From assembly GCA_963971285.1 (NCBI GenBank), contig OZ020250.1, positions 21,108,783 through 21,172,782 on the forward strand: DNA of 64,000 nucleotides, read 5' to 3'. The DNA comes from Astropecten irregularis (lineage: Eukaryota > Echinodermata > Asteroidea > Paxillosida > Astropectinidae). Made by a program: the position numbers and the translations under genes. Positions 27,657-64,000 of the stretch are shown piece after piece. Position 1 is the first letter of the stretch, and every line of letters begins with the position of its first letter. The notes beneath the pieces are model-generated. The model had not been told where the DNA came from, made no database searches, and was given only the letters and a program-made list of their open reading frames with translations.

Positions 27657-28171
27657 TATTATGATATCCACAGTTGCAGGTGATTGCGTGCAATTGCATA
27701 GGGCCTAGTCTACTTTACCCTTTGGTCTGACGATGACTTTTGGTATATGTACCAAAGACCGGTATATTTCAGTATACCAAATCCACACCGTGATATCGCA
27801 TTTTGTTTGTACTCGTGAAGAGACGTGAAGATTTTCCATTGAGGTTGGAGTACTGTTAAGATAATGAGCAACCAATCAGATTGCGTGTGTTATGTCGTCT
27901 GTGTAATGATAAATAAACATTTCACCTGCTCTTTAGAACCAACTATAAGGCACGATTTATTCAATAATTATTATACTTCGCCATTTTCTCTTGTGGTAGT
28001 GGTATTAAATATTAACAGCTTCCGGACTTTAAATCGGTCGGAGTTTAGTTGGCTGTAGTCACTCCGCCGCTAGGAAACTACAAACTCGCATTAAATAGTT
28101 GTTAAGCTGTGCCGTAAATTTGAGCATTTTTTCGGGATCATTTTCCCGCCTTTTTGAATGGAGAGGCCATA

Positions 28172-28235
28172 ATGACTGTAATACGTGGAGCAATGAAGCC
28201 GAATATTCTGATCTTGTTTTCTTTCCTAGTTACAG
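28172..28235 (+). CDS. Lectin gene exon 1: signal peptide
   Basis: ATG at 28172 (a second in-frame ATG at 28193) followed by a basic start (MKPN) and the hydrophobic core [11 protein letters not shown], ending in a phase-1 donor acag|gtgagt. Joined to exon 2 the sequence continues VVAQT, giving a plausible signal peptidase site after VVA. An upstream ATG at 28158 opens only four codons. The first intron is about 4.0 kb and holds several repeats. Confidence 0.8.
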
Positions 28236-31200
28236 GTGAGTCCCGTGTGAACGCACTGTTTCTAAATCAAACTACAAAATTGTTTTACGATCATTGTCTA
28301 CATTTTGTTTTCCTTTTTGAGGCTTATGGTCACTTTTTGCAAACCTTTACAGCTTAAAGGTAGTAGCCTACCATACTTTGGTAAGAAACCAAAACAGAAA
28401 TCTTCACAGATTTACATATAACTTACAGGGTGTAAAGATGGTGATGGTAGAAACATACCGTTAACATTTTTATGCCTGAAATGTTGTATTTATCAAGAAA
28501 AGAGTAAAACCCAATTGACTAAAAACAATTTTGATCTTCGGAAGATCAAAAATCCCGTGAACAAATGTTAAAATACTGTGGACGTTTTTCACTCTTTTCT
28601 CAAAAAGTGGGCACCATATGGGTCTGGGAATTTCACAGATGACTGGTACTGTTTATCTCCCTTGATATTTTGATTTGCTTTTAAATTTGAAATGTTTTAA
28701 TTCGGAATTTTGCTTGGGTGGGACGTAAAACTTAGATTCGAGGGGGCGTGATGGAATATTGTCAGGATCACAATAATTGCCATAGTGCCGCGAAAATGAT
28801 ACCAATTATTGAATTATGCCACAAAATTGATGCTTACATAAAGATTCCGATACAGAGTTCATATAGTTTGAGCCGGCTGATGCTATTTATATGCTCAAAC
28901 TAATTGGAAGTAATATCAATCACGTGGGTCAGATTGTTAGCCACTTGACTCCTGCAGATAAAGATTCGGTACCAGGTTGAGGTATATCCAGATAGAAGCC
29001 ACGCCAGCTATACGAGTGGTATACATTATGGTATATGATAATAATACAGCGTTTATTTATAGCGGTTTCAAACCCATCATCATAACGCCTCACCACAGAG
29101 GTCATTTCCCCTTGTCTGCAATATTATTGTGAGAAGCAAGTAGTTACAGTATTTCTTGCTTAAAGATAACTTTCCAACTTTGGTTTTTGGCAAATAAATG
29201 CAGATTCATTGGCGAAAATATTAAGAAAGATACAGTAACAGTCATCTGTGAAATTCCCAGTCCCATTATAATGTATACGGTGCCCACGTTTTGAGAAAAT
29301 AGGGAGATTGTTGAAAGTCGGACTCACCCAATTGAACGGAAATTTGTTGGCGACCAAGTACCTGCCACCCGTGCTGCCCCAAAGAATATTCAAAAAGAAA
29401 GGAAAATTGACCTACCTTCAGGACTGAATGATTACTCACACGAAAATACGAAACGGTATATGCATTATAGCGGTATATGCATACCGATTCGTATGGGTAA
29501 ATTTCTTCAAAACAAGGTCAGTTTTCCTCGCTTTTGAATATTCTGTGTGGCGGTATAAAGAATATGCTATCCAACAAAATTCTGTGTTATTGTGTTTGGG
29601 AGAGGATCCGGAAAGGTCGCGGACCACCTAGACTTAATGGGGTCACTCTTTCTTAGTCCGCGCGGTGATTGTCTCTTTTTTTCCCCCGCAACTCTCGCGC
29701 GGTTTCGCGCGAGTTGCGGGGGGGAAAAAAGTCAATCACCGCGCGGACTAAGAAAGACTTGGCCCCAAGTCTACGGACCACCAGATCCGGTGTCATGCCA
29801 AAAGGTGTCCGATGCCAAATAGTGTCCGCGGAGCATGCGCAGTGAACACTGGACACTTTTTGGCATGTATATACATGCCAAATAGTGTCCGCTGCCAAAT
29901 AGTGTCCGAGCACAACCCATGCGTACGCACGTATAATGGTGCATTTGAAGAAGGCCGCGTACGTACAAGTACTAGTATTCTCGATCCTTTCTGATTGTTT
30001 GTCAAGGTACCGTATATTGCAGGGAGTCTATAGGGAGGTGTAATGAATAATACATATTTTGCAGGAAGTTAAAACAAACAGTACAATACGCATGCTATAA
30101 ACAAATAAAAACACTTTCATTTACGATCAAAAAATAACACGATATTGCGTGACTTTTATCACCTTTTTTCCCGTATCTGTATATCTACCCATCTAACTAA
30201 CCCTTAATTTCTTTTCTATTAAAAATAACGTCATTGGAACACTATTCTTAAACTATCTGCCAAGCTTGATGTCAGCCCGATTATTCTTAACTGCCCTTAG
30301 TAGATTTCACATGATGATTTTCGTCGATATAAATTATAAACTCCGACACGTCTTGCTAGGTGAAGAGTCAGCCTGACTCCATAGGACGCACGCTAAGTGC
30401 GGACACTATTTAGCAAGCTTGCATAATTATATGACGTCAACGGTGCATAGCCAATCAAATCCCAGTATGGTAATTAGCGGACACTATTTGGCAACGGACA
30501 CCTTTTGGCATGACACCGGGATCCGACTTTCATCAACACCCGAAAATAGTGAAGAATATGAAGCCCTATTCGTGCCACTTGACCAGTAGATGTATGTTTC
30601 CCCATGTGCGATGTATTTCATTGTACCGCCACTTATATCTCGCGGCCGCCACTTAGTAAGTCGCGACCGCCACTTATTATCTCGCGGCCGCCACTTAGTA
30701 AGTCGCGACTGCCACTTATTATCTCGCGGCCGCCACTTAGTAAGTCGCGACCGCCACTTATTATCTCGCGGCCGCCACTTAGTAAGTCGCGACCGCCACT
30801 TATTATCTCGCGGCTGCCACTTAGTATCTCGTGGCCGCCACTTAGTATCTCGTGGCCGCCACTTAGTATCTCGTGGCCGCCACTTAGTATCTCGTGGCCG
30901 CCACTTATTATCTCGCTGCAGAGAACATGAACAAGATTCTCAGTGCAATGAATTTCCCTGCATCTTTTATGTGCCTAAATATAAATACGTCATTTGTATA
31001 GCATGGCTACATACATGTATTATAGTTTGCACAATTACATGTCATGCGAAATTGTGTGCTGTAAGCTTCTTTGAAAATAAGTTGACATTTGTATTTTCCA
31101 TTCGTATTATGATATTTATAATATTTAATGCTGCCTGCATCAAACTTTGTAACCAGTTGAACAAAATGTATCTTTTCAATAACCAAAAAGTATTGGTAAA

Positions 31201-34200
31201 GGTTAGACTAGAGTTTGAGGCTATCAGATATAACCTTTATCAAAGATATCGCGTATTCAGGCAAACAAAATCACAACCTTTACACCTCCAAGTATACAGT
31301 AAAAAGCCGGTTAACGCCCATTAATCTGATACTCAACATAACACTGCATGACACCAAAAGTGTAATATAATTCACACTTTTATGAGATTTCTTGTCTTGA
31401 TTTCAATTCAATTAGTTTATCGTGACAATCTTCTCAGAAAGATACAATGCTTCATTTTCTATACCAACTTGACAGTAATGAATAGATTTAAAGTTTTATT
31501 TTGCTAAATTAAAGGTAATATCATACTTTGGTTTTTGTCAAAGAAATACAGATTCATGAGCAAAAATATCAAGGAAGATACAGTAACAGTCATCTGTGAA
31601 AATTCAGTCCCATGCAGTGCCCACTTTTTGAGAAAACAGTGAAAAACAGCCACAGTATTTCTTAAGTATTTTCTCTTTTATTTTTGATCTTTTAAATGAT
31701 CAAAAAGATTTTCAGTCGTTGTTTTACTAATTTCTGGATAAATACACCATTTCAGGCGGAAATATTTGAACGCTATGTTCCTACCATCACCATCTTCATA
31801 TCCTGAAAGTTATACGAAAATCTGTGAACATTTCTGTTTGGGTACGTTACCAATCCTGTACTTTAAAGGTAGTATCAGGGTATGAAGATGGTGGTGGTAG
31901 AAACATACTGTTAAAATATTTTTTCAACCTGAAATGCTGTATTTATCCAGAAATTTGTAAAACAACAACCGAAAATGTTTAGATTTTTTCAGTAAAAGAG
32001 AAAAAATTTAAGAAATACTGTGGCCGTTTTTCACTGTTTTCACAAAAAGTGGGTACCGTATGGTAATGAAAGTTTCACAGATGACTTTTACTGTATCTTC
32101 CTTGATATTTGTGCCCATGAGTCTGCATTTCTTTGACAAAAACCAAAGTATGATATTACCTTTAAGTCACTGAACAAGTGAATTCGAAGACTGGTTACTA
32201 TAGTAAAAGTTTGTTGACCTTTTGTTCTCTTATGAATGAACTTCCAGTGGTGGCCCAGACATATCCTAAATGTGGAGGAAGCTGGGTGCAGAGGAATGAC
32301 CGATGTTACTTAGCTGTGTCTGGGAGCGATAAGGAATGGACAGATGCCAGGACAAATTGCCAGAATAAAGGAGGAGATTTGGTCATCATACCTGACCAGG
32401 CTACTGCTGTAAGTTATCTAGCAATTATGACATTTTGTGGTGTTGTCTGGGGTCAATTTCAAAGAGCTGCTTAGGCACCAAACTTTGCTTTTAAGCACCA
32501 AAAACCTTGGTATAAAATCAAATCAGTATGTCAGCCAAAACTCCTTGTGAATGTTATGGTCAGCAAACAATGGCCGACTAATACAAGTTAAAAGCAGTAA
32601 ACATCACATGAAAGTTGGTTGGTAAGCCTGTTTGATCAAGGAAGACTTTTCATGCTTAAAGGGATGGTACAGAACTGGTGTTTGCGACAAAACCGTTGCC
32701 TACAGTGAAAGCACATTATGTAATCCATCATATACCTTAACTGACAAACCTGTAGAAGTTTGAGGTCAATCAACCATCTGGGTCACGAGAAAATAGTGAA
32801 ACCCCCCCCCCCCCCCCAAACCCGTGTACAGAGAACTGTACACATTTCAACGAATGTGTACAGCAATAACGCTTCGAAGCGATTTAGTCCGATCAGGAAA
32901 TAGTTTCAATTATTTCTCAACGAATATGGCATTTCAAACAAAAAACATTTCATGGGATGTTTTCTCCTATCATCACCATTATACTGTGTAAGTTTTATGT
33001 GAATCTGTGATCACGAAGTGTATTTTGTCTTACCAATTCTGTACCATCCCTTGAAGCAAAATGTTTGCTTGGCCATTGGGGGTGGGGGGGGGGGGGGGGT
33101 ACTATGATTGATAGTAAGTTAGAATGAGTTTGGTGAAATCGACACCGGTTCTTCCTTTTCTATGAAACTAATACCCATACATTTTCTTATGAGGCTAAAT
33201 TCGACAAACTTTGCAATATATGGAGGATGTGGTTTTCTAAGCAGCAATAATGATCGTCAAGATTTTAGTTCAGGATACTTGTTTTTCCTTATATACCATT
33301 CCTTAAATACTGTAGAACTTAATTTCATTGATTCTCCCTCAGGACGTGTTGCTGAATATGCTCTCAGGAGTGACGCAACAATACTGGATTGGACTGCACG
33401 ACAAAGTCAACGAGAAAGTCTTTAAATGGGTTGATGAGGAAACTCCAACGGATAAAAACTATGTGTAAGTGAAAAACAAATGATCTCCCTAAACTTTTAT
33501 CACTGACTGATTATTTAAAGGTATAATACATGATTGGTATTAAAGGTCACAGAGCAACACTCTGATCCAGCTTGTAGGTGATAATAAACCTGTGCACAAA
33601 AATTGCTTAGCACAAAAATGTCCCAATAAAACAAACCACCTTTAAAAATTCCATTTGGTATTCATGGTCGGTGAACAACAGCCAAAGTGACACACAACAC
33701 ATTGGAATTTTTTTGTTATGAAGACAGAAATTTCATGATTAGCAAATGTTTGTGCTAAGCAGGGCCATGCAATTGGCCTATAAGGCCTTGGCAAACCACT
33801 CCACATACTGCAATCGTTGGGGTTCGAACCAGGGACTCTAGACCTGAAGAGCAAACCACTATTCACCAGCCTGATCCAAAGATTCAAAACCTAAACTCAC
33901 TAATGCTTGATTTTCAGCAACTGGAGTCCCGGAGAACCGAACAACTCTGGAGCTCCATGGTCATCAGAGGACTGCGTGGCCATGAAACCTGACACTGCGA
34001 CAGGCAAATGGAATGATGAGACATGTACCGATAAACGACCTTACATCTGTGACAGACTTGTCAGTAAGTTGCATCAAAATTGCCCACGAGCCTATTCCAT
34101 AGAGCTGGTTTAGCAACAAAGTTTCATAAATCAATGCTAAATCAAATCAGGCCGATAGTGTATTCCTGTTTGAATGCAACTTTCAGCAAGTAATCGCCGA

Positions 34201-37200
34201 ATCAATTCAAATACAAAAGAGACATTTCCAAACAAATGTGCTAGCTTAAGGGTCTCAATGACATCTAGGACTCAAATTGAATCTTAATTTTGTGACTTTG
34301 AAAGGAAACAGTGCCATTCATAAATAAATGATAATAGACTTGGTAGACTTGGAACCAACAGCAATTATCTTCTTATGAAAAATTAACAAGTTCACATCAA
34401 GGTGGAAAGAAATGTACAATCATTTGATTGTAATGTCCACTTTAAGTGATTACAATTCATAGCCTAGCAGCCTTACAAGGGGCATTTCTCAAAGCTTGGC
34501 TCCGGCTCAAGCTCTGGCTCCGCCTCCATTTCGTGAATCCATTTCAAAATTACAGGTATCAAAATAGAGGCTTAATTTGGCTGCAGTTAGGAAGTAGATT
34601 CTCTGGTTTGAAAAGGACAACAGAGCTTCAGCTTCAATGAAAAACCACAGCCTATATTTTCAGCCTATGAAAACAGAGACGGAGCCGGAGCCGAGCTTTG
34701 AGAAAGGCCCAAGGGGGCTTCAACTTTGCATTATATTAGCACCAAGTTGCAAAATATCTTTGATGAATTACCACAGCAAGCCTTCCCAAATGTGACGAAT
34801 CGGACGGCTGGCGAAGCTACAACGGTAAATGCTACCAGTTCTTCACCATCGGGGCACGGAACTGGAAGTCTGCCCAGGATGTCTGCGCCTTCTTCTCTGG
34901 AGGTCACCTGGCCTACATCAAAAGCGCCGACGACCAAGCCTTCGTGGATAACCTGCAGATCACTCACGGCACTGCTTACTGGATTGGATTACAGGCATGT
35001 GCTGTATCAATTTTTCTTATGTCTTGGGTTTGCAGTATGGTAGTATCATACTTTGGTAGCATACCGAAACAGAAATCTTCACAGATTTACATATAACTTA
35101 CAGGGTATAAAGACGGTGATGGTAGAAACATACCATTAAAATGTTTCTGCCTAAAATGCTGTATTTATTCAGAAAAGTGTAAAAACAGTGACCAAAATTT
35201 CTTATCTTTTTAAGATCAATAATAAAAGAGAAAAGACTACTGTGGCCATTTTCACTGTTTTCTCAAACAGTGGGCACTGTATGGGACTGACATTTTCACA
35301 GATGACTGTAACTGTATCTTCCTTGATATTTGTGTCCATGAATCTGTATTTCTTTGACAAAAACCAAAGTTTGATATTACCTTCAAAAAGACCACTCTAT
35401 CTTTGGCTTTTGTCATTTTTATTGTTTTAATTTTTAAAGTACATTTGAATAACAGATTTACAATTTCCATAAGTTTCAGATGTTTTTAAATTTAAACATT
35501 CATTTTCACCCTGCACTAAAATAATGTCTTCAATTCCTGTGTGTCAATTTTTGCAAATTTAATTTTATGCCATCTGTGGCTATGTGCGATCCCATAAAAA
35601 TTACCAATTTTTAAAATTGGCTGTTTATGTTAAATTGTTTTGTTTTGTTTGTGATGTTTGTTTTTAACCATTAGGACGGTGCATCCGATGGTCAATACCA
35701 ATGGACCGATACCTCACCGTTTGACAAAAGCAACTCCTTCAATAAATGGGACACCAATCAGCCGAAGAATAAGTGAGTTACTATTCATTGCCTTCAGCTC
35801 AGGCTCAGGCTCAAGCGCAAGCTCAAGCTCAAGCTCAAGCTCAAGCTCAGGCTCAGGCTCAGGCTCTGGCTCAGGCTCAGGCTCAAGCTCAGGCTCCGGC
35901 TCCGGCTCCGGCTCTGTCATACATATGCTGAAAATATAGCTTGTGTTTTTTTTTTCATTGAAGCTGAAGCTCTGTTTTCCTTGTCAAACCCGAGAATCTA
36001 CTTTCGAATGGCAACCAAAAGCCTCTATTTTGATACCCGTTGTTTTAGGATGGATTCACGAAATGGAGCCGGAGTGTGAGCCTGAGCCTCCATTCCGTAA
36101 ACCCCCTGACCAAGCCCTGCTTGGGCTCTGACTGCGGCTTCAGCTCAATTGTGGAGATCTAGTTTGATTAATATAAAGTATCAAAGCTCAGGGTTCTGGC
36201 TGTAGCTTCAAAGAGAACACTTCTCTTTATAAATTATAGCAAAAGAAATTAAGCTTTAACTTCACAATCAATACTAGGGTCTGTATTGCCAGCTTCTGGA
36301 TGGCAGAAACCAAAGCCTGAGCCAGAGTATGACCCAGAGCTTCAAAGGGAGCTTTAATCCAAGGGTGTGATTAAAAGCCCAAATCTGGAATGACTGGGCC
36401 CTGTCTGGCTGAACCAAACTTACCCAACATTCAGTAATCTCTAAGATTATCACAAGCACAGCAAGATATTACTCCAAATATAACTCTCAAATTCTTGGCT
36501 GGATAGAACTTGAGAATGTTCCCATGTCTCACATTGCAGCTGGTTTGGCAAAGAAGGCGACTGTGGTAGCGTCAATGATAAAGGACTGTGGACCATAAAA
36601 AACTGCAACACCAAGTCCAATTATATTTGTGAAATCGCTGAAGGTAAGACTGTCACTTGAACCCAAACAAACAAACAAACAAACAAACAAACAAGTCTAA
36701 ATCTTGCTCAATCAAAGGGAAAATGGCCGAGATGCAATTCCATGTTTTTCTTAATCATCAAATAACCACAAGGGAAACTGACTGGATTAATTTTAAGTCA
36801 TTGAACAAAGTGAACAAAGAAAAATTGACTGGAGCGGGATTCGAACCAGTGACCCCCAGAATACCATACCGGTGCTCTACCAACCAATCAAAACAAGATA
36901 TAAATCAGTATTGGTTATTTCATTCATGGGACTGTAGATATTGAGCTACTGATGAACACGCTTACATAAATATAAAGCATAAAGCATTTTAACTTGCTAA
37001 GCAGACTCTTAAATCCACACACTCCGCTATCCCGTGTCTCAATTGTTTCCCCTCCCCATCCACATATAACTACAAATCATATCCATCTTGTTTTCTCATA
37101 CCAAGGATCCTGCCCAGTGGGCTGGCATTTGTTCAATGGGAAGTGCTACCAAGTCAACTCCCAAGTTCTCAAGACGTGGACCGATGCCAGAAAATTCTGT

Positions 37201-55200: not shown

Positions 55201-58200
55201 AGCTCGGGACCATGGCGATGAATGCTGATGACAAATTCTGGATTGGTTTACATGATGACCCGGTAGGTTCATTGCCAACCTCAGTGCAAACTAGACTAGT
55301 AAAACAAAAAGGAAGAACCTATATCTCCTGGAGAGATGGACAAGGTCTTAGATAGGTGATCAAGGTTCACACTCATTTCAGACCACCATCTTCTGAGCAC
55401 AGCTGTGTTCATAGATTACAGTCTGCCTGGAATTTGGGATATTGTCCGATGGTATTCAACCATTGTGTGCCTGCATTGTTTACGCCTAGCTCCCTACACA
55501 CATGGCCCAGCCAGATGACATCTATTTGACCGATGGCTGATAATGAGGCCGGTAAAAGCTGGACAGGCTGGACTAAAGGGAATAACTGGGTAATGCTTGG
55601 AGTCGTTCAGCTTTCTTTCACTAATAAGTTTTGTAATTCACTAACTTCTTTTCCTGCAGAAAACCGGTATCTTCAGCTGGATTGACGGCTGGCCACTCTA
55701 CTATTCCAACTGGGACTGGAACGATCCCAAAGGCCTGGAATGCACCGCCGTGAAGACGCAGCCTGGTTGGTGGACCCCTGGCGGAGAATGGAAGAACGTT
55801 GAATGCTCAGAGTCATATTACACAGCCTGCAAATTTAATCAAGGTTTGTAACAAAAGAATAATTGATCAGTCAACAGTAAATGCAGATGGCTGTCCAGTA
55901 TTTCAAAGACGTCAAGTTTTATCAATAGAGAGGAAACAGCAGTTGAGGAAACATCAGGGGCTAATATTGTGGAGCTGCTTAAGCACCAAAATTTGCTTAA
56001 GCACCAAAATTTGCTGAAGCACCAAAATTGGCTTAAGCACCAAAAAACCTTGGTGCAAAATCAAATCAGTATGCCAGCCAAAACTCCTTATGAATGTTAT
56101 GTTCAGCAAACAATGGCTGAATACAAGTCCAAAGCAGTAAATTTGCTTGGTAATCCTGTTTGATCAAGGAAGACTTTTCGTGCTTGAGCAAATTTTGTGC
56201 TTAAGCAGCTCTATGAAATTGGCCCCTATAATGATCACATGATTAGAGAACAGAAAATGATGGGTAATAGCTTATTGTTAGTATGCACTACATTATTGAG
56301 AAGTTCGTGGAATCTCTGAGGTTTTGTGTCTGTCACTTTCCTGTCATAAACAGCAACTCCTCCTACGCCGGTACCCACGTCGGAAGGTTACTGCGAGGAC
56401 GATTGGACCGCCTTCGGATCAAGCTGCTACATCATGGGTTCCGGCAAGTTTGACACGGGCACGTTCAAGGAGGCTGTCTACGACTGCGACCGCTACTACG
56501 GAGGAGCTCATGTTGCCATCATCGGAAGCAAAGAGGAGAATGCCTTCGTGATGAACCTCGCCCAGAAGGATTTCGGTTTGAGCTGGATACTTATCGGTCT
56601 GGAGCGAAGCCCCTCAGGTAAGAGGGCATATGTTCACTATCTTACATCCTTTCCAATGCATCTCATCTTCTTCATCACAAATGCCTGTCTGCTTGTAACA
56701 CATAACTAGGGGAATTTGATGACAATACACCTGTTGGTTGAATTTCTTAATTGATTGGTATTTGCAAATGTTAAACAAGCTTGTATTAAATACATCCAGT
56801 ATGCCATTGTGACCTATATATGTGACACTGAGCCACAAACTATGGAGCACCTCTTGAAGTGTCCTCTATTGGAGCATAAATGCAAAGCTGAGGACCTTGC
56901 AGAGTACAATGATATTGCTAGGAGCTGTGTCCAGGCGTGGCTGCCTGGGGGATGGCTATCAGAAGACCGAAGGAGTACTGCTCGAAGGTTGATGTGGCAA
57001 TGCCATGCTCCCACTAATTGATTGATTGAACCAGTTCCCTGATGTCTATTGCTGCAGGTGCCTGGGAGTGGTTAGATGGTAGTCCTGTATACTACACCAA
57101 CTGGGGTGATGATGAACCAGGATCAAGTAACTGTGCAGAGATCAGACCGGATGCCAAGGGCAAGTGGTACGACATCGGCTGTGACATCAACAGCCACTTT
57201 ATTTGCGAGAAACCTAAACGTAAGTCCCATGCCTCATCAACATTGTGAACTATAAATCTTAATAAGGAAAGGTTTGCGTAGACACAATGTATAATCTCTT
57301 TAACCACTAACTTAAGTCTATCATCTGAGTAATAATCATCAAATAACCATAAGGGAAACTGACTGGATTGATATTAAGTCATTGAAAAGTGAACAAAGAA
57401 AAATTGACTGGAGCGAGATTCGAACCAGCGACCTCTGTCCGGAATACCAAGCCGGTACGGTATTCCAGGGATCACTGGTTCTAATTCCACCCTAGTTCAT
57501 TTCAATTTTTAGTCATAGTGTGTTTTATATTTTAGCTCTATCTTCTTTTCTTCTATTTTGGCAGTATCCTTGGTGACTACCCAGGCACCTATCCAATGTA
57601 AGTAGAATTATGGTTCATCTTATTTGAGACTGAAAATGGGCCAATTTCATAGAGCTGCTTAAGCACCAAAAATTGCTTAAGCATCAAAAACCTTGGTTAA
57701 AAATTAAATCAGTACGCCAGCCAAAACTGACAAGGAGTTCTCTTTGGTTCACTCTGTGAAATTGGCCCCATCACGTTTAATGCTCTGCCATGTTCGAATG
57801 CTGGCAACAAAAATAATGGGAGTATTGCTCATGTAATATACAGAATTAAAAAATGTCTCTAAAAATGTAGAGACTCACAATATGGATATTGGCAATTCCA
57901 CAGTAACTTACGTTACCTGTTAAGCTACTTTGACTTATTCCTTGACACAGTTATTCTTGAAAGACTCCAATAAAGAAATGTGTTATTGAATCAGCAAGTA
58001 TACCACTTAACATTCCTTGAAATGCATGCAAATATTCCAAAAAGAGGTTTTACGTTACAAAATAGGCACCGTGGAAATGCCAATAAACTTTTTATAAAAG
58101 AAAAGAAAAATCTTACAAATTTATACTGGATGATTCGCAGTGCAACCATGTCCAAATGGTGGTGATGACGGCTGGAAGTGGCTGAAACCGTACTGCTACC

Positions 58201-61200
58201 TTGCTGTTAAAAAGTACAAGAGCTGGCACGACTCCGAGGTCTGGTGCAATCAAAATGGCGGCTACCTGGCATCCATACACAGTGATGAAGAACAGAAATT
58301 CGTCAAAGAAGTGGTACGATCTTGTTTTATTACAATCTCTTTTTAGTTATAGGTCATTTTATCATGTTGGGTAGGATTTGTTAGCTCTCTTCAACTCTCC
58401 ATTATGTCAGCATACTTATTTACATAATTATTTACTACACCTCCCAATTAATACTTTTAATTAATTAAATTAATTAATGTATTTGTTGCAAGTTGAATGA
58501 AGGATTAGACGATTAAAGTTTGCTGACTTTACATAGACACATCGCACAATCAAGCCGTAACATAATATTGTCACATACTGTTAGAAAGCTCCTTTACCAG
58601 CTAAATTAAGAAGTGATATTGTGTATATCTTAAGATATAAACTGTATCTGTCTTTGTGCAGAAATCCGGTGGGTTGATATCTAAATTCTGGATTGGTTTC
58701 AACAAGCTCTATGACGAAGGTAGTGGGGACGATTACAGGTATGTAAGTCTGCATTTTCATATTCATGAATAAAATATGTAAGAGAAAGTACACAATTCAG
58801 CCTTGACCTCCACATACTCTTGTTAAGTCAGAAGAAATTGCCTAAAAAAATAGCTTTTCACTTGAACATTTCTGAAATGTTTTGCTTGAGCATCAAGAAT
58901 GTTCCATCTTTACCTTAGTCCTTAAGCCAAAGTTCTCTTTTTACAAACCTTATTGATTTGCCAAAAACCAACACTATAGCTGTACTGTGGAGCAGTGCTA
59001 ATGGGACATTCTTCTGACTTTTAGGAAAAAAGCAAACCATATAACTAAATGTTATCTCATAATCATCAAATAGTCACAAGGGAAACTGACTGGATTAATT
59101 TTAGGTCATTGAAAAGTGAACAAAGAAAAATTGATTGGAGCAGGATTCGAACCAGCAGAAAACCGTACCGGTGCTCCAACAACTGAGCTATCCAGCCCTA
59201 TGTTGCCGGTGTCCATAATAGTCAATTATCATTGTTTCATTTGTCAGTCAGAAGCATGAAACTTTGCTCATTTTCCAATAATATAAATTTTATCTCAATT
59301 AAGATTTCTGATTGATGCTTTATAACTTACCTCCTATTTTCCAGACATTTATCGGTAAATTGATGTACCTTATTTTTTCAGATGGACTGATGGATCCATT
59401 CCCGATTACACAAACTGGGATGACGGGCAGCCAAATGACCACAAAGGCGCACAGAAATGTGCACAAATGCAAAGGGGTAAGCAAAATTTAAATCCTCAGA
59501 ATGTGTAGTTTTGTTCTATAAGCATATACAAGAGCTGGCGCAGTTCTAGAGCCAATGTTTTTTGGGAGGCTAAAAGAGACAATAGTTTTTTGTTTTATTG
59601 GGGGCAGGGCCTAGAAGAGCCATTATTTCCTTTTGGGTGGGAACTAGAAGAGGCAATATTTTGGGGGGTTAGACCCTTCGCACGTGACGTCATCTTCTAA
59701 CATTCGCTTCTGCCATCTCTTATTAGAAGTAAAAAAGCAACCTAGTGCCTGCACACAAGTGTACAGCACGTTTTTCAAGTAATTGCCGTGTAATGACTGA
59801 AAAGATATTTTCGAGCATGTTTTTTTTTTGCATTTAAAATTTTTTTTTTTTTTTGGGGGGGGGAGGTGGCTACACACAATTTGGCTTCATTCAAAATACG
59901 GTTAAAGAATTAATATTGTAATGACTATCATAAATCTCAAAACAAACCATTTTTGTTCAGCTGGTTTTTTGAAATCACATTCCCTGTTCATGTAATAACA
60001 CTTTTGGATTATTTTTACTTCCAGATGGAACATGGGCCGATACAAACTGTGGAGACACCCAGGTCTTCGTCTGTAAGAGGAAGGATGACAATACCTCCCC
60101 AATCATCAAACCGTCCCCTCCTCCCGCCGTGGGTAATTGCCCTTCAGGATGGAGCAAGATAGGAACGGGCTGTTACCAAATCAATGCCGATACATCGGAT
60201 TATATGACATGGACGGACGCAAGAAGGCAATGTCAGAAACAGACCAGAGGTGATCTGGCCTCTGTGCACGATCAAGGAACACAGTGTAAGCTTGAACAAA
60301 ATCATCATTATTGTACAGTCTTCCTGAAATGCTGTGTTTTTCCTAAAAAGAGTACAATTTAAGACCAAAAACATTTTTGATCTCAGGGAGATCAAAACTC
60401 CTGTGAATAGATTTGAAAATATACTGCGAGAATTTTCAACTGTTTTCTCAAAAAGTGGGCACCGTATGGAAACTGAGAATTTTACAGATGACTGTTACTG
60501 TATCTTCCTTGGTATTTTTGCCCATGGATCTGCATTTCTTTGAAGTATGAAGTTGCTTTTCAAGAAGATTTGAAATGGGAGGTGGGAGGTAATAATTGAG
60601 CTTTGAATTAAACAGCAACAGAGGGATGAGGGAGGACAATTGCTGTGTAATTATTGGACTGATGCTTTCTTAGATCAACGCCTGACGATCTCGGCTTCTA
60701 ATATTGAACTTAATTCATATTCCTGTAGCTCTCTTGGCAAACATGTTAAAGACAGAAACTGGCAATGTATGGATTGGTCTTGCTGAGGGTACAGCTGGCT
60801 GGTTTGGCTTCCACTGGGTGGACCAGAGTAACGTAGACTACGAGCACTGGGCTAAGAATCAGCCTAGCTTTAATTTCGTAAGTTCAAATTACGCAAAAGC
60901 TTTCTCATCAATGACACTTAAATAGCTAGATCATTTGAACTTTCATTAATAAAGTGCTGCAAACTGCTCATCAGCCAAACCTGAAATTTACAAAAAATGC
61001 TTGGAGTAGGAGGGCCTGGCGTTTCGATCACAGCAGCATCTTTCTCAAAGGCAAAAAGGCTTTTAGCCTGCGATAAAGACCCTGCTAGGATGGAAACGTC
61101 AGGCCCTCCTAACTCCAAGCATTAATAAATTACGGAAGATTGAACTCCTAAATAGTACATTCTGTGCTGTATTATATCATAGTCTCTTATTCGCTGTACC

Positions 61201-64000
61201 TGTAATGCCTCAGATTCAAGCAATCTAACCTTTGGGTCTACAACCAGTGATTCCATTTTCCCATCTTTTTATTCGGCTCATAGCTCGAAACTCACACCAA
61301 TGCAATGTTTAATCCTGAAAATTTTTCCCAAAAACAAAAGCCATCTCCAACAAAAACAAAAAGTGTAAAATAGATCACAGTTTTTGATTAAAAACATTTT
61401 TAAATCCAAAATTGTACTTTTGTTTGATTTTTGGGGAATGGTTCTGGACTTCATATTTATGAGTTTGTTCTTTTTGCAGTTTGATGAGGCCTGCGTTGTC
61501 ATGGTGAATGATCCTGAGTATCCGGGGCGATGGGATGACATCAAGTGTGATGAGAAGCACGGCTATCTCTGCTATCAACCGCTTAGTGAGTTTATCCAAT
61601 TTGTATCAGTTAATTGCTGCTTTATATCGATGCATTGATATCGTATTATTTCAAACTTTTATTCAATTTTCATCTAAGTAGGGCCCAATTTCATGGAGTC
61701 CATTAACGTTAGCAAACAATTTTCGCTGACGATAGCAGACTTTTTTGCTTACGATTAGCATATTTCATGGGAGAGCTGTCTTTTTCACTATGCTAAAGCA
61801 AAGACTTTCTGCAGAATGCATATGACAGCGTGTTAGCAGAAAATAATCACGTTGCCCTAAAAATTCATTGCTATAAGCACAAAAATAGGTCGTAACGGAT
61901 TCCATGAAATTGGGCGCTGGTCAATTGTTGGTAGTTATAATTGATATACACCAGTTATTGTGTAAAGCATAGACCCTGCACAGCTGTACTTGTTACTTGC
62001 AGTAACACCATGTAATCTCTTCTGTAAGAGTGTGTGGTTCTGAGAAGAACCGGTGGTTTAACACTCAGTGTGCTCTGTTCGTCTTCAGGAGGGTGACTGG
62101 TTGCGTGACTTGGAGGATGCTGGTCATAACCTTTGCTGTAACTCTACTTAAACTTTCTTTCCCCAGACCCTAATCTGACCACCATGGCACCCCCAACCTT
62201 ACCCCCAAGCGGAGCCCCAAGTCAGGCCCCTGGACCATGCCCGATCCGGGGCTACCTGCCCCATGACAAGGACTGCTTCAAGATCTACACCGACAGACTG
62301 ACATTTGATGACGCCCAGAAAGCCTGTGAGGATGAAGGTGCAGCCATAGCCACTATTGTAGACGGCTACACTGAGGCTTTCATCATTGCTAACCTGTTGT
62401 ATGCTAATAAGGAGACTACTGATTCTGCATGGATAGGACTTGTGGCTGATAATGTGAGTAAATTTCCTAAATTTATTTTGTAATAGCAAGGCTTGGATGT
62501 GACAACGACAGTGCCTTAATTGCTACCCCTGATCATCCTTCCCCTTGATGCTCCTGGTCTTGATTTGGTGCCCCTGGTCATTGCCTCAGTGCCCATTGCC
62601 ATTACCTTGATGCCCCCTGATCATTGCCTTTATGCAACTGATGAGCATTGCCTTGGTGCCCCTGGTCATTGCCTTGACCCCCCTTGGTCATTGCCTTGAT
62701 TCTCATGGTCATTGCCTCGGTGCCCCTGGTCATTGCCTTGGTGCCCCTGGTCATTGCCTTGGGTGCCCCAGGTCATTGCCTTGGTGCCCCTGGTCATTGC
62801 CTTGGGTGCCCTGGTCATTGCCTTGGTGCCCCTGGTCATTGCCTTGGTGCCCCTTGGTCATTGCCTTGGTGCCCCTGGTCATTGCCTTGGTGCCCCTTGG
62901 TCATTGCCTTGATTCTCATGGTCATTGCCTTGGTGCCCCTGGTCATTGCCTCGGTGCCCCTGGTCATTGCCTTAATGCCTCTGGTCTTTGCCTTGATGCC
63001 TCTGGTCATTGCCTTGGTGCCCCTGGTCATTGTCTTGGTGCCCCTGGTCATTGCCTTGGTGCAACTGGTCATTACCTTGGTGCCCTGGTCACTGTCTTGG
63101 GCCCTGGTCAGTGCCAGTCTTTCAAAATATAATGACTCAATTAATCATAATAAATAATTATTTGTTATCAGTCCACAGGGTTGTTCCATTGGGTGGACAA
63201 ATGGCCAGTCACTTACACCAACTGGAGTCCATTTGAGCCAAGCGGAAAGAATCAGTTGTGTGTCAAGATCACCCAAGAAGCTGAATGGAAGACCACTTGG
63301 TGTAGTCAAACCAGGGCCTATATCTGCCGCACGACCACTGAAGTCTGTAAGTCTGCACATATACACAGTGGAATGCTGCTATAACAAACATCACATACAG
63401 TGGTCGTTCGTCATAGCGATTTCAAGCCGCCAGTGCTTTGGGAATTCGGTATCTTTTGTACACAAAAATTGGGAGCCAAGGGGCATGTTTGTTTCGCCGC
63501 ACCATCCCAGATCTGCGGGTCCACGTCCTATGCAGGGTATGCTTAAATGGGATCCGGATCAGCAAGATCACTGATCTCGTGCGTGAAACAAACAGGCCCA
63601 AGGATGATGATCAGTATATTCCAATGTTTGTTATAGCGGCAATCCACCGTACTTCCGGCTTTCGTTTTTGAAGTATGATTACCCTGTCAATTTATCAGGT
63701 ACCTGTTTATGAAGCACAGTTCTAAGAAGTGCCTTGTGCTTTATGCTACAATTAGTGACGAAATGGAATTCTTTGAGACTCTTTGAGAAAGCTGACTGGC
63801 ATATTATGTTTGGATTTCTTCTCCAGTCGTTCCTCCCACGGTTCCTGTCCTCGTACCTGAAGGATGTCCCAAGGACTGGGAAACCTTTCAGGGACAATGC
63901 TACAATTTCAAGACGGAGGCCACTAATTATCTGAGCTGGTACGAGGCAAACTATCTCTGCGAGACGGAGAACTATAATTCCAGGGTCCTGTCTATCCACT
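28172..64000 (+). CDS. Giant multi-CTLD lectin with PAN domain (mannose-receptor-like), 50 exons in window, 3' incomplete
   Basis: A chain of 50 exons with matching phases and (with one GC exception) GT-AG borders gives about 2,360 codons without a stop before the window ends in exon 50. Order: signal peptide, CTLD1-5, one PAN/apple domain, CTLD6-16 (the last cut by the edge), with Pro/Thr-rich linkers between many domains. CTLDs show the fold's landmarks: CxxxW start, WIGL-like core and paired cysteines. The mannose receptor family has 8-10 CTLDs plus ricin B and fibronectin II domains at the N terminus; those are absent here. Expected to be extracellular, secreted or membrane anchored (the anchor would be downstream), binding glycans in a multivalent way, perhaps in immunity or adhesion. 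The single-gene model is supported by phase continuity; a split into two genes is possible but no internal start or stop signals it. Exon coordinates are given with each domain below. Confidence 0.88.
29629..29773. mobile_element. Palindromic element flanked by a 9-bp direct repeat
   Basis: tagacttaatggggtcact at the left and ggccccaagtcta at the right enclose a long hairpin whose tip is cgcgcggtttcgcgcg. The sequence cggaccacc is present at both sides (29620-29628 and 29774-29782), as expected for a target-site duplication. Confidence 0.65.
29789..30517. mobile_element. Inverted-repeat DNA element, TGTCATGCCAAAAGGTGTCC ends
   Basis: Left end ggtgtcatgccaaaaggtgt followed by tgccaaatagtgtccgc; right end gcggacactatttggcaacg then gacaccttttggcatgacac. 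Further internal gtgtccgctgccaaatag repeats follow the left end. About 730 bp, no coding sequence found; probably a non-autonomous DNA transposon. Confidence 0.62.
30626..30917 (+). repeat. 14-unit tandem repeat, 21-bp unit
   Basis: Unit ccgccacttaktaxxtcgcgr in lectin intron 1. The first nine units alternate between attatctcgcgg and agtaagtcgcga types, forming a 42-bp dimer; the next four are homogeneous (agtatctcgtgg). NotI-like gcggccgc palindromes arise at junctions. Since 21 bp is seven codons, frames stay open across it, but there is no sign of coding. Confidence 0.85.
31510..32165. mobile_element. Two AAAGGTARTATCATACTTTGG elements joined end to end
   Basis: One copy runs 31510-31866 and a second 31862-32165. 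They share a single ctttaaaggt junction. The second ends tatgatattacctttaag, 80 bp before lectin exon 2. Other copies or fragments: 35038-35386, 40695-40797, 45620-45725, 52636-52715, 60312-60546. Confidence 0.6.
32248..34063 (+). CDS. Lectin gene CTLD1 (exons 2-4), mannose-type site
   Basis: Exons 32248-32408, 33343-33464, 33918-34063; internal introns are phase 0 and 2 and the outer borders are both phase 1. Begins [16 protein letters not shown], core YWIGLHD, then EPN in the long loop (SPGEPNNSG) and WND (GKWNDETC), so the calcium site 2 and the mannose/GlcNAc-type specificity triplet are both intact. This domain directly follows the signal peptide, leaving no room for a ricin B or fibronectin II domain. 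Confidence 0.88.
32450..33080. mobile_element. Nested pair of inverted-repeat elements in lectin intron 2
   Basis: The outer element starts ggggtcaatttcaaagagct and contains the gccagccaaaactcc-type interior of the AATTTCATAGAGCTGC family (here cagccaaaactccttgtgaa). It is interrupted at 32656 by a different element, ttaaagggatggtacagaac to tctgtaccatcccttgaa (32656-33054), after which the outer element resumes with gcaaaatgtttgcttgg. Outer copies elsewhere: 17885-18088, 20210-20447, 55960-56226, 57637-57771. Confidence 0.65.
34481..34709. mobile_element. GGCTCM-type inverted-repeat element, copy 4
   Basis: ggcatttctcaaagcttggc at the left, gagccgagctttgagaaagg at the right, with the family interior agattctctggtttgaaaag. 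In the intron before lectin exon 5, ending 68 bp before its acceptor. Confidence 0.65.
34777..36643 (+). CDS. Lectin gene CTLD2 (exons 5-7), sugar site lost, one GC-AG intron
   Basis: Exons 34777-34994, 35675-35772, 36540-36643. Starts [18 protein letters not shown]; core YWIGLQ lies at the exon 5 end and the next exon continues [10 protein letters not shown]. The exon 5 donor is cag|gcatgt, a GC instead of GT. The long loop reads QPKNN, not EPN, and the WND position reads WTIKNC, so canonical calcium-dependent sugar binding is unlikely. Same phase pattern (0, 2) as CTLD1. Confidence 0.85.
35785..36104. mobile_element. GGCTCM-type element, copy 5, with expanded hexamer array
   Basis: The left end consists of a run of about 20 GGCTCM/AAGCTC hexamers from 35796 to 35918, followed by the family interior (catatgctgaaaatatagct) and right end gagcctccattccgtaaacc. 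It begins within about 15 bp of the donor of lectin exon 6. Confidence 0.62.
36662..36694 (+). repeat. (acaa)n microsatellite
   Basis: Seven to eight perfect acaa units (aacaaacaaacaaacaaac) 20 bp after the donor of lectin exon 7. Confidence 0.8.
37106..39175 (+). CDS. Lectin gene CTLD3 (exons 8-11), degenerate sugar site
   Basis: Exons 37106-37235, 37894-37976, 38328-38462, 39101-39175. Starts [15 protein letters not shown]; the WIGL core is LYIGIS; long loop GQPPAGVNN; end EWIAGDCF then AYVCEV. EPN and WND are missing. Four exons instead of three, with phases 2, 1, 1. The fourth exon is only 75 nt. Confidence 0.83.
38030..38215 (-). mobile_element. tRNA-derived SINE (third family), representative copy
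   Basis: On the minus strand the head at 38165-38096 folds as a tRNA-like: acceptor GGCTGGA against TCCAGTa, D arm GCTC/GAGT, B-box region GGTTCAAATCC. The body ends with cacttttcaatgac and a downstream stretch cccttgtggttatttgatga. Other copies or fragments: 36745-36905, 57338-57480, 59062-59230 (minus), 4108-4190, 24486-24560, 45722-45835, 53866-53945 (plus). Anticodon and T stems are mismatched in every copy, so these are SINE heads, not functional tRNA genes. Confidence 0.6.
39687..39719 (+). CDS. Lectin gene exon 12: linker
   Basis: A 33-nt phase 1-1 exon (acgcag before, gtaagt after) encoding [10 protein letters not shown], a proline-rich spacer between CTLD3 and CTLD4. Its frame fits both neighbours. 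As a symmetric micro-exon it could be skipped without breaking the frame. Confidence 0.65.
40324..41505 (+). CDS. Lectin gene CTLD4 (exons 13-15), sugar site lost
   Basis: Exons 40324-40485, 40836-40924, 41367-41505; internal phases 1 and 0. Starts [16 protein letters not shown]; core VWMGLND; long loop GHPAAQDC and QWKTRACYE replace EPN and WND. The last codons of exon 15 (FVCEKDAG) and its donor are the first unit of a tandem repeat that continues into the intron. Confidence 0.85.
40502..40690 (+). mobile_element. tRNA-derived SINE copy (second family)
   Basis: Head with A-box-like tggcctagtgg and B box GGGTTCGAATCC, then a body cttcacccaggtgtaaatgg followed by gtacctgtgcaggtagag. A second, 5'-deleted copy with the same body is at about 54225-54375 (cttcacccaggtgtaaatgg again). 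It begins some 20 bp after the donor of lectin exon 13. Confidence 0.6.
41052..41296. mobile_element. GGCCAATTTCACGGCGTTGCTAAGC inverted-repeat element
   Basis: Left ggggccaatttcacggcgtt, right gctgtgaatttggcccc, interior cgatacacaacacatggaaa. Truncated relatives at about 19181-19340 and 33585-33780. A third related element with ggagtccattaacgttagc arms occupies 61682-61920. Confidence 0.62.
41483..41822 (+). repeat. Five-unit tandem repeat (65-71 bp) that includes the end of lectin exon 15 and its splice donor
   Basis: Unit core: ttgtgtttgaaaaag, then gctggtgagt, atgcaatccaaacttcagtt and aaacaatgggttctat. The first unit contains the real exon end (TGTGTGTGAAAAAGATGCTG) and donor gtgagt; units 2 and 5 retain gtgagt, unit 3 has gtgtgt, unit 4 gtgaaa. 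Confidence 0.8.
42155..42193 (+). CDS. Lectin gene exon 16: linker
   Basis: A 39-nt phase 1-1 exon encoding [12 protein letters not shown], a Pro/Thr-rich spacer between CTLD4 and CTLD5, bounded by atacag and gtaagt. Likely O-glycosylated spacer (inference). Confidence 0.65.
42441..42717. mobile_element. Inverted-repeat element, ATTTCACCAAACACTAAGAT ends
   Basis: Left gggatttcaccaaacactaa, right tatagtgtttagtgaaatcg followed by acccc. Between them a second mirrored pair, gctatggctaggtctattgt and acctagacctagctctagac. In the intron between lectin exons 16 and 17. Confidence 0.58.
42809..44216 (+). CDS. Lectin gene CTLD5 (exons 17-19), mannose-type site
   Basis: Exons 42809-42982, 43293-43412, 44091-44216; internal phases 1 and 1. 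Starts [17 protein letters not shown]; core SWIGCND, with a cysteine in place of the usual leucine; GEPNNVIG and GTWNDDYC give intact EPN and WND. There is also an extra cysteine pair (HCCEIY). Ends phase 1 before the PAN exon. Confidence 0.86.
44258..44395 (+). repeat. Cluster of GACTCGAGT-like words
   Basis: In the intron before the PAN exon, actcgagt or close variants (ttgagtcgagt, actcaagtcgagt) occur about eight times in both orientations within 140 bp. Confidence 0.55.
44446..44691 (+). CDS. Lectin gene exon 20: PAN/apple domain
   Basis: A single 246-nt phase 1-1 exon encoding about 82 residues with the PAN signature: [10 protein letters not shown] start, cysteines spaced CAMRC ... [12 protein letters not shown] ... 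TCYF, then YDHYE-like end (QHFDHYER). PAN/apple domains bind protein or carbohydrate. Sitting as a symmetric exon inside a CTLD series, it looks like an insertion by exon shuffling. No second copy was seen in the window. Confidence 0.82.
45049..46982 (+). CDS. Lectin gene CTLD6 (exons 21-23), mannose-type site
   Basis: Exons 45049-45267, 45944-46101, 46878-46982; internal phases 1 and 0. A Pro-rich lead ([13 protein letters not shown]) precedes [14 protein letters not shown]; core [17 protein letters not shown] and GFWNDLPC keep EPN and WND. Exon 23 ends in phase 0 and also carries the linker [14 protein letters not shown] with the first cysteine of CTLD7, so the domain boundary has no phase-1 intron. 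Confidence 0.87.
46131..46461. mobile_element. Inverted-repeat element with AAGGCCTAAAAAAAAATTGTT ends
   Basis: Left aaggcctaaaaaaaaattgt then tatgttgccctca; right tgagggcaacacaacaatta then ttttttaggcct. Starts 30 bp after the donor of lectin exon 22. Confidence 0.62.
46985..47260 (+). repeat. ATGGCWATGRCA minisatellite in lectin intron 23
   Basis: Imperfect 6- to 12-bp repeats such as aatggctatgacaatggc fill the whole intron between exons 23 and 24, from a few bases after the donor to about 30 bp before the acceptor. Confidence 0.75.
47292..48827 (+). CDS. Lectin gene CTLD7 (exons 24-26 part), QPN variant
   Basis: Exons 47292-47410, 48181-48329 and the first part of 48727-48938; its first cysteine is at the end of exon 23. 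Continues [12 protein letters not shown]; core FWIGFSD; GQPNDNEGNC (QPN rather than EPN) and YWMDRSC in place of WND. Sugar binding is uncertain. Internal phases 2 and 1. Exon 26 runs on through a Pro/Thr linker into CTLD8. Confidence 0.84.
47871..48120. mobile_element. GGCTCM-type element, copy 6
   Basis: gggcgtttacgaaatggagg with GGCTCM hexamers at the left, family interior, and gagccttcgttttgtaaacc at the right. These ends differ from the ctttctcaaag type (as in copies 5 and 7), so at least two end subtypes exist. It lies 60 bp before lectin exon 25. Confidence 0.62.
48828..50472 (+). CDS. Lectin gene CTLD8 (exons 26 part-29), mannose-type site
   Basis: Last part of exon 48727-48938, then 49476-49603, 50009-50067, 50305-50472. 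Linker [15 protein letters not shown], then [14 protein letters not shown]; core [19 protein letters not shown] and GEWNDLFC keep EPN and WND. Exon 28 is only 59 nt. Ends with a phase-1 donor. Confidence 0.87.
48989..49318 (+). mobile_element. tRNA-derived SINE with (att)n tail
   Basis: Starts with a tRNA-like head: A-box-like aggtggcaagtgcg, B box GGGTTCGAATCC at about 49049, followed by a body containing ttctccggttttcctccctc and ending in an (att)n microsatellite at about 49301-49318. These are the three standard parts of a SINE. It lies about 50 bp into the intron after lectin exon 26. Confidence 0.7.
51253..51294 (+). CDS. Lectin gene exon 30: linker
   Basis: A 42-nt phase 1-1 exon encoding [13 protein letters not shown], bounded by caacag and gtaaaa, between CTLD8 and CTLD9. 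It is the positional counterpart of linker exon 41 before CTLD13. Confidence 0.65.
51772..53528 (+). CDS. Lectin gene CTLD9 (exons 31-34 part), QPD variant
   Basis: Exons 51772-51938, 52487-52548, 53009-53109 and the first part of 53468-53743; internal phases 0, 2, 1. Starts [17 protein letters not shown]; core [19 protein letters not shown] carries QPD, the triplet of galactose-type CTLDs, and GRWTDENC has WTD in place of WND. Whether the site works is uncertain. The same exon layout recurs in CTLD13. Confidence 0.85.
52204..52413 (+). mobile_element. Non-LTR retrotransposon fragment (C-terminal end of reverse transcriptase ORF)
   Basis: The frame reads [20 protein letters not shown], then [19 protein letters not shown] and ends DEQGT-stop. 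This is the conserved tail that follows the reverse transcriptase in RTE-like LINEs ([13 protein letters not shown] ... DRxLW). Only the 3' end is present, as expected for 5'-truncated copies, within the lectin intron between exons 31 and 32, same strand as the host gene. Confidence 0.7.
52721..52959. mobile_element. GGCTCM-type element, copy 7, abutting another repeat
   Basis: ttggcttaggttcaggctca at the left, family interior, gcctaagtttcgtaaatgcc at the right. It directly follows a truncated AAAGGTACTATCATACTT element at 52636-52715, which suggests insertion into that copy. Confidence 0.6.
53529..54819 (+). CDS. Lectin gene CTLD10 (exons 34 part-36), mannose-type site
   Basis: Last part of exon 53468-53743, then 54032-54183 and 54708-54819; internal phases 1 and 0. 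Linker [13 protein letters not shown], then [16 protein letters not shown]; core [22 protein letters not shown] and GKWNDEDC keep EPN and WND. Counterpart of CTLD14. Confidence 0.86.
55012..55843 (+). CDS. Lectin gene CTLD11 (exons 37-38), sugar site lost
   Basis: Exons 55012-55262 and 55660-55843, separated by a phase-0 intron just after the core (FWIGLHDDP | [10 protein letters not shown]). Starts [17 protein letters not shown]. The EPN position reads NDPKG and WND reads EWKNVEC. Only two exons, exactly as in CTLD15. Confidence 0.85.
55960..56226. mobile_element. GGCCAATTTCATAGAGCTGCTTAAGC element with extra internal repeats
   Basis: Left end ggggctaatattgtggagct, right end gctctatgaaattggcccct. 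The left arm holds four tandem copies of a gcttaagcaccaaaattt-like 18-mer, where other copies hold two, so the arm has expanded locally. Confidence 0.63.
56354..57219 (+). CDS. Lectin gene CTLD12 (exons 39-40), degenerate site
   Basis: Exons 56354-56617 and 57058-57219, phase-1 intron. Linker [12 protein letters not shown], then [16 protein letters not shown]; core [17 protein letters not shown] (EPG) and KWYDIGC (WYD) depart by one residue each from EPN and WND. Between the two exons lies a retrotransposon fragment. Confidence 0.85.
56815..57021 (+). mobile_element. Retrotransposon fragment with [16 protein letters not shown] motif
   Basis: In-frame [20 protein letters not shown], then [20 protein letters not shown] and a stop at 57021. 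The motif (C-x-x-x-EPQTM-x-H-x-L-x-x-C) is known from the C-terminal region of jockey/CR1-type reverse transcriptases found in many invertebrate genomes. Only about 65 codons remain. It lies in the intron inside CTLD12. Confidence 0.6.
57565..57597 (+). CDS. Lectin gene exon 41: linker
   Basis: A 33-nt phase 1-1 exon encoding [10 protein letters not shown], bounded by ggcag and gtaagt, between CTLD12 and CTLD13. Frame fits both sides. Confidence 0.62.
58141..60100 (+). CDS. Lectin gene CTLD13 (exons 42-45 part), QPN variant
   Basis: Exons 58141-58313, 58662-58738, 59382-59476 and the first part of 60025-60285; internal phases 0, 2, 1 as in CTLD9. Starts [18 protein letters not shown]; core [19 protein letters not shown] and TWADTNC (QPN, WAD). 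Calcium-dependent sugar binding uncertain. Confidence 0.85.
60101..61585 (+). CDS. Lectin gene CTLD14 (exons 45 part-47), degenerate site
   Basis: Last part of exon 60025-60285, then 60729-60877 and 61480-61585; internal phases 1 and 0 as in CTLD10. Linker [12 protein letters not shown], then [15 protein letters not shown]; core VWIGLAE; NQPSFNF and GRWDDIKC (QPS, WDD) replace EPN and WND. Confidence 0.85.
61975..62110. repeat. Dispersed repeat containing GGTTCTGAGAAGAACCGG
   Basis: gtgtggttctgagaagaacc followed by gtcttcaggagggtgac. Two relatives: 46478-46625 (gtgtggttctgaaaagaacc, gtcctcaggag) and 37645-37760 (agcagaacc, catcttcaggagggtgag). All three lie in lectin introns. Confidence 0.5.
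62167..63346 (+). CDS. Lectin gene CTLD15 (exons 48-49), degenerate site
   Basis: Exons 62167-62453 and 63172-63346, phase-0 intron just after the core (AWIGLVADN | [10 protein letters not shown]), matching CTLD11. A long Pro-rich lead ([16 protein letters not shown]) precedes [16 protein letters not shown]. Long loop [10 protein letters not shown] (EPS) and EWKTTWC; site probably inactive. The intron is largely a 21-bp minisatellite. Confidence 0.84.
62530..63115 (+). repeat. 21-bp minisatellite in lectin intron 48
   Basis: About 27 imperfect copies of tggtcattgccttggtgccc(c). The array fills most of the intron inside CTLD15. Open reading frames through it are a result of the 21-bp unit and are not coding. 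Confidence 0.8.
63827..64000 (+). CDS. Lectin gene CTLD16 start (exon 50, cut by window edge)
   Basis: Acceptor ttctccag at 63826, then a Pro/Val-rich linker ([12 protein letters not shown]) and [15 protein letters not shown] ... SWYEANYLC, the N-terminal half of another CTLD. The frame is open to the edge of the window, so the gene continues. Confidence 0.83.

Follow-up and report, generated by a model that had tools for sequence, protein, structure and literature searches.

Exon-chaining models and domain scans confirmed that the 64,000-nucleotide window of the Astropecten irregularis genome analysed here (G000:C14:21108783-21172782) holds most of a predicted single, intact gene, gene A, which is complete just past the window edge, at 65873. 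Its product reads, in order, signal peptide, C-type lectin-like domains (CTLDs) 1-5, a PAN/apple domain, CTLD6-16, a transmembrane (TM) segment and a short tail with the motif GFDNVLY. This type I protein is probably an endocytic scavenger or pattern-recognition receptor. The analysis yields a complete gene model with 16 CTLDs, a paralogue with 18 (gene B) and purifying selection across the pair.

Gene A was modelled by exon chaining trained on the locus itself, with predicted splice sites, in three stages: without homology (34 exons), with a CTLD profile derived from the locus, and with homology to gene B. Genome searches covered the 475.7-Mb assembly. Its mitochondrial contig, C168 (16,335 bp), judged from the translations, carries COI at 6299-7855 with ND4L, COII and ATP6 after it on that strand, and ND1 and ND2 on the opposite one; COI-ND4L-COII is a gene order of echinoderms and inversion of ND1/ND2 relative to COI occurs in sea stars, which supports an echinoderm source. 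The final model has 53 exons and encodes 2,534 amino acids with no internal stop. The original prediction had joined 50 exons in phase from a signal peptide through CTLD1-5, PAN and CTLD6-16, still open at the window edge; the exon-chaining model and a Pfam scan both reproduced that chain, the same number of exons (50 of 53) touches the window, and exon 50 runs on across the edge to 64090. The sequence to the right, proposed as the place to look for further CTLDs and a membrane anchor, completes CTLD16 in exon 51 (64548-64733) and continues through a doubtful linker, exon 52 (64973-64999), to exon 53 (65635-65873), which encodes the TM segment, tail and stop. The gene thus extends little beyond the earlier reading, and candidate polyA signals lie downstream at 66667 and 67101.

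All exons are on the forward strand. Exon 1 (28193-28235) encodes the signal peptide, has a second in-frame ATG at 28172, where the original prediction started, and ends at a phase-1 donor (ACAG/GTGAGT). It is followed by CTLD1 (exons 2-4, 32248-34063), CTLD2 (exons 5-7, 34777-36643), CTLD3 (exons 8-11, 37106-39175), CTLD4 (exons 13-15, 40324-41505) and CTLD5 (exons 17-19, 42809-44216). The PAN/apple domain is a single exon between phase-1 introns (exon 20, 44446-44691). The second run comprises CTLD6 (exons 21-23, 45049-46982), CTLD7 (exons 23-26, 46878-48938), CTLD8 (exons 26-29, 48727-50472), CTLD9 (exons 31-34, 51772-53743), CTLD10 (exons 34-36, 53468-54819), CTLD11 (exons 37-38, 55012-55843), CTLD12 (exons 39-40, 56354-57219), CTLD13 (exons 42-45, 58141-60285), CTLD14 (exons 45-47, 60025-61585), CTLD15 (exons 48-49, 62167-63346) and CTLD16, of which exon 50 reaches the window edge (63827-64000, exon end 64090).

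Several small exons are less certain. The short linker exons 12 (39687-39719, coding score -0.8), 16 (42155-42193, 2.9) and 41 (57565-57597, -1.9) have no counterpart in gene B; together with exon 52 they measure 27-39 nt, each a multiple of three flanked by phase-1 introns, and skipping them would leave the frame intact. A further short linker, exon 30 (51253-51294, coding score -0.8), has a counterpart in B (identity 0.69). Exon 9 (83 nt, in CTLD3) is uncertain, and the frame needs some exon of the same phase there; because it does not match the 17-nt CTLD3 exon of B, and because CTLD3 of B scores only 53 bits, part of CTLD3 is uncertain. The GC donor site of exon 5 (34994) belongs to the same list of uncertain features. 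One candidate exon (47673-47759, 87 nt, score 3.3) was excluded because B has no counterpart.

The window contains other features. Two single open frames on the forward strand (6676-7704 and 8063-8932) match rhodopsin-type GPCRs (7tm_1), an exon on the minus strand (20961-21431) matches the sodium:solute symporter family, and two membrane-like stretches on the minus strand, at 11909 and 25294, have no Pfam match. Minisatellites with 21-bp units occupy 30625-30916 (~14 copies) and 62543-63115 (~27 copies); the latter sits in intron 48/49 of gene A and holds a 173-aa open frame with no Pfam match. A tandem repeat with a 65-bp unit (41485-41812) begins with a copy that covers the 3' end of exon 15 together with the donor. 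An interspersed repeat at 31508-31597 recurs in eight other places (9 window matches including itself, 84-100% identity) and is also present upstream of gene B. Farther out on the minus strand, from ~136570 down to 132577 (window coordinates continued), exons resemble, by eye, an ArfGAP with ankyrin repeats (AGAP-like).

The domain content of gene A agrees with the earlier count of at least 16 CTLDs and a PAN domain: in the 2,534-aa model, Pfam recognises Lectin_C in 16 stretches (E=1.3e-296) and PAN_1 once, at residues 739-814 (30 bits versus a cut-off of 21.4). Searched alone, the PAN exon reaches 38.8 bits against that cut-off (E=8.2e-10); the matching exon of B reaches 41.4 bits (E=1.3e-10), and the two are 60% identical. 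Xlink and UL45 also exceed the Pfam cut-off in gene A, which we take to be cross-matches to the related CTLD fold. With the locus-derived profile, gene A has 16 CTLDs, gene B has 18 and a third gene, C, has 7. Besides the Lectin_C matches, the CTLD superfamily signature is seen in at least six cysteines in all 16 domains of A and all 18 of B; the first CTLD of gene C, as cut, has five. EPN and WND, the motifs of mannose-type Ca2+ sites, occur as a pair in CTLD1, 5, 6, 8 and 10 of gene A (5/16) and are missing as a pair from the remaining 11, with QPN in CTLD7 and QPD in CTLD9. In gene B, CTLD6 and CTLD8 retain the pair, and CTLD5, 7 and 9 have QPD. Such motifs may indicate sugar binding and do not by themselves prove it.

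The transcription unit could in principle be two or more tandem genes, given 20 AATAAA hexamers inside the locus and a chain with predicted splice sites, and we regard this as very unlikely. The intron between CTLD5 and PAN is only 229 bp in gene A and 100 bp in gene B, and exons 23, 26, 34 and 45 each run across the boundary between two adjacent CTLDs (CTLD6/7, 7/8, 9/10 and 13/14, respectively); at these joints there is therefore no room for separate genes. The other joints are predicted from the reading frame and from paralogue B alone, in which the whole order is repeated. The single gene originally proposed stands on these observations.

Both ends of the predicted protein fit a type I membrane topology, with a signal peptide, one C-terminal TM helix and a short tail. 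A scan of the gene A strand over 24000-32247 for exons that combine an ATG with a hydrophobic core and end at a phase-1 donor returned one signal-peptide candidate, the exon at 28193 with the nested ATG at 28172; at the same strict thresholds, none was found in two control stretches or upstream of B. Looser thresholds left A with one candidate, gave none in the control 150000-170000 and yielded a sole candidate upstream of B, MRLKFLVFCLLLGT at 124442 (nested ATG 124445). The signal-peptide exons of A and B both join the start of CTLD1, VAQT, in phase. At the other end, exon 53 encodes a hydrophobic stretch with a mean hydropathy of 3.17 across 20 residues, followed by a tail of ~50 residues that includes GFDNVLY and ends in SKRPLEEPGLPPTTGFDNVLYTPSLEEIKTPQIAINDAKTNTMSEA before the stop. 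Six-frame translation of the 264-kb locus (527,996 residues) contains two occurrences of F[DE]N.LY, and the tails of A and B have one FDNVLY each. The stretch TGFDNVLYTPS is identical in the two tails; the remainder has diverged.

Gene B, on the minus strand from 124442 down to 83508 (window coordinates continued), is a full-length paralogue. Its 2,782-residue model reads signal peptide, CTLD1-5, PAN, CTLD6-18, TM segment and a tail with TGFDNVLYTPS. When the 53 exons of A were compared with 56 of B (the B signal peptide left out of the count), 47 pairs were formed, with equal phases in 47/47 and equal length in 25, leaving 6 exons of A and 9 of B unpaired. The proteins are identical at 1,397 of 2,423 aligned residues (57.7%), with pN at 0.27, pS at 0.75 and pN below pS in ten of ten stretches; dS was not used because silent sites are saturated. 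The sequences show full-length conservation of A and B, as expected under purifying selection. In an IQ-TREE phylogeny of 41 CTLDs, all 16 CTLDs of A are sister to the CTLD at the same position in B, and the 16-domain order is therefore older than the A/B split. Similarity between introns was left out as evidence because interspersed repeats dominate the DNA comparison of the two loci, in which 112 of 128 HSPs fall outside A exons.

The gene B model was adjusted by hand at two donors (90142 and 89306), placed at the positions of the CTLD-profile model, and its TM exon was extended to the stop. It includes doubtful short exons of 17, 12, 30 and 39 nt, and exon 18 measures 282 nt versus 219 in A, so that its end may be wrong; an exon at 113467, with no counterpart in A, was excluded. 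That gene A is a pseudogene or an assembly artefact is extremely improbable: we found no points in favour, its 2,534 codons run without a stop, pN is below pS throughout, and A and B are too diverged to be two haplotypes. Gene C lies between A and B, also on the minus strand, from 81538 down to about 68550 (window coordinates continued). Its signal-peptide candidate is at 81538, and its seven CTLDs are followed by a TM segment at about 68691, provisionally spliced to the last CTLD; the uptake motif F[DE]N.LY was not found in its tail.

The distal lectin domains show a period of four. From CTLD9 onward in gene A, the pairwise score peaks at lag 4 (209), with 119-131 at lags 1, 2, 3 and 5, 96 at lag 6, and 187 at lag 7, which comes from one pair. 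The corresponding scores in B are 183 at lag four, 171 at lag seven, 149 at lag three and 106-127 at the rest. The CTLD tree, with strong to modest support, groups 9 with 13; 10 with 14 and B17; 11 with 15 and B18; and 12 with 16. By pairwise score the CTLDs of gene C are nearest to CTLD13-16 of A and B, and in the tree six of its seven fall inside these groups, C5 lying outside. The array probably expanded in part through duplication of a four-CTLD block, represented by 9-12, 13-16 and, in B, 17-18, and the repeated block offers a clear example of how such long arrays of lectin domains expand.

Related loci elsewhere on the contig suggest a small family. Of 13 candidates scored genome-wide for the PAN exon, 9 matched with E no higher than 0.1: those of A and B, C14:4857584 (36%, 1.1e-10) and C14:20203675 (39%, 4.7e-10), then two weaker matches on C28 (6.7e-4 and 0.0011), C14:4901981 (26%, 0.013), C18 (0.023) and C27 (0.024). 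For the TM-tail exon, 9 candidates were scored and 7 had an E of 1 or lower, namely A, B, C14:4917800 (8.6e-7) and C14:4882058 (4.7e-5), with weaker ones on C27 (0.061), at C14:20220178 (0.137) and on C22 (0.84). At three further C14 loci, near 4.86, 4.90 and 20.20 Mb, PAN and TM-tail matches are paired: the TM-tail lies ~24.5, 16 and 16.5 kb, respectively, downstream of PAN on the PAN strand, and CTLD matches fall in the interval. Two of the three include one weak match: PAN at 4901981 (E=0.013) ranks behind the two C28 PAN matches that have no TM-tail partner, and the TM-tail at 20220178 (E=0.137) ranks behind the C27 match (0.061). The genome search found no TM-tail partner near the C28, C18 or C27 PAN matches. 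We infer a family of about five loci, all on this contig; for two of them part of the evidence is a weak match. The two PAN-like exons at G000:C28:12470174-12474682 are 4 kb apart, and CTLD6-like exons also occur near 6.72 and 7.23 Mb of C14. The genome as a whole is rich in CTLDs (150 scored among 1,282 candidates); among the matches listed, most are full-length in one open frame and many lie on C25, C23 and C1.

An uptake receptor is the best reading of gene A because a FENTLY-like motif is present in the tails of both A and B. The F-[DE]-N-x-L-Y tail would take the receptor into clathrin-coated pits, in the manner of the FENTLY motif of the mannose receptor, for which clathrin-dependent uptake is described (PMC8551360, PMC5297682). 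The long CTLD chain could bind microbial glycans or those on the sea star's own glycoproteins, PAN would perhaps bind protein ligands, and, judged by motif, only CTLD1, 5, 6, 8 and 10 may be capable of Ca2+-dependent binding of the mannose/fucose/GlcNAc type. Such a receptor might be expressed in phagocytic coelomocytes and act in defence or clearance. The pairless majority of CTLDs (11/16) would also suit a membrane lectin for adhesion or matrix binding, its array serving as a spacer or multivalent glue, and C-type lectins have been found in some echinoderm skeleton proteomes, though not in sea-star ones (PMC7351957). We nevertheless consider an adhesion role rather unlikely, since the short tail keeps TGFDNVLYTPS identical in A and B despite the divergence of the remainder.

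Long CTLD arrays are already known, with published proteins reaching 14-15 CTLDs. The claim that no named protein has this order is consistent with the literature matches listed, which hold neither the CTLD1-5-PAN-CTLD6-16 architecture nor a PAN domain among many CTLDs; automatic sea-star genome annotations may already hold a CTLD-PAN-CTLD protein. A similar layout by description is that of Fugu DEC-205-FUSE, with five CTLDs, LCCL, FA58C and ten CTLDs, seven in a later assembly (PMC514892). Like gene A it has five CTLDs, a non-lectin insert and then a long CTLD run; unlike gene A, its inserts are LCCL and FA58C rather than PAN, and it is a prediction lacking a cDNA. By domain content gene A can be likened to the Manila clam RpMR proteins, which are called mannose receptors and have 1 to 14 CLECT domains each; the seven domains given for them do not include PAN (PMC12321717). 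C-type lectin repertoires are expanded in some echinoderms (PMC10140915). The N-terminal region of HGF contains a PAN/apple module weakly like the PAN exon of A (best E=0.012 against HGF chains). We know of no lectin array that encloses the HGF module.

The mannose receptor family is the nearest known system. In a PDB search with the first 1,399 of the 2,534 residues of gene A, the best 60 of 252 distinct matches had the yolk-sac IgY receptor at the top (E=3.4e-98), followed by DEC-205, PLA2R and the mannose receptor. A single continuous alignment pairs CTLD6-10 with residues 372-1094 of the chicken IgY receptor, which we read as its CTLD2-6, and this register tops the scores in A (737; next, 613). 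CTLD8 is the best stretch among CTLD1-9 for the mannose receptor chains 1egg and 7jub, presumably CTLD4 of that receptor. These matches, with the similar tail motif, favour true membership in the family (MRC1, MRC2, PLA2R1, LY75), with loss of two N-terminal domains and gain of PAN and CTLDs, which we judge unlikely. In B the register peaks one step on (635 at CTLD7-11 versus 607 at CTLD6-10), which makes the positional match less than robust, and we do not claim positional orthology to the IgY receptor CTLDs.

Against membership, too, stand the domains by which the family is defined. Its members have up to 10 tandem CTLDs. Their minimum is eight (PMC514892), and the 16 CTLDs of A and 18 of B fall outside the range of 8-10. 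As the original prediction had it, no ricin-B or fn2 domain precedes the array: neither appears in the Pfam scan of the gene A model, and neither exceeds the cut-off on C14. Genome-wide, fn2 gave 0 matches over the cut-off and one weak match on C9 (an exon-split domain could be missed), and ricin-B gave 21 matches, none on C14. We therefore read gene A as a predicted type I receptor that would work like the mannose receptor yet lies outside that family's definition.

A broader proposal, which we hold tentatively as possible rather than probable, is a separate deuterostome family that is a sister line to the mannose receptors. It would combine a mannose-receptor-like CTLD core and an uptake tail with five CTLDs and PAN where the mannose receptors have their cysteine-rich and fibronectin II domains; no canonical fn2-bearing mannose receptor would be detectable beside it, and it would have grown by four-CTLD blocks into about five genes on one chromosome. 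If the tail of A acts as the mannose receptor tail does, the family's uptake part may predate the vertebrate front end, and an echinoderm would do the same job with different modules. In layout, A and B resemble MRC1/CD206, MRC2/Endo180, PLA2R1 and LY75/DEC-205 in having a signal peptide, tandem CTLDs, one TM segment and a short tail, with FDNVLY in A where MRC1 has FENTLY. They differ from that family in lacking the cysteine-rich and fibronectin II domains, in their 16-18 CTLDs and in the PAN domain set between CTLD5 and CTLD6.
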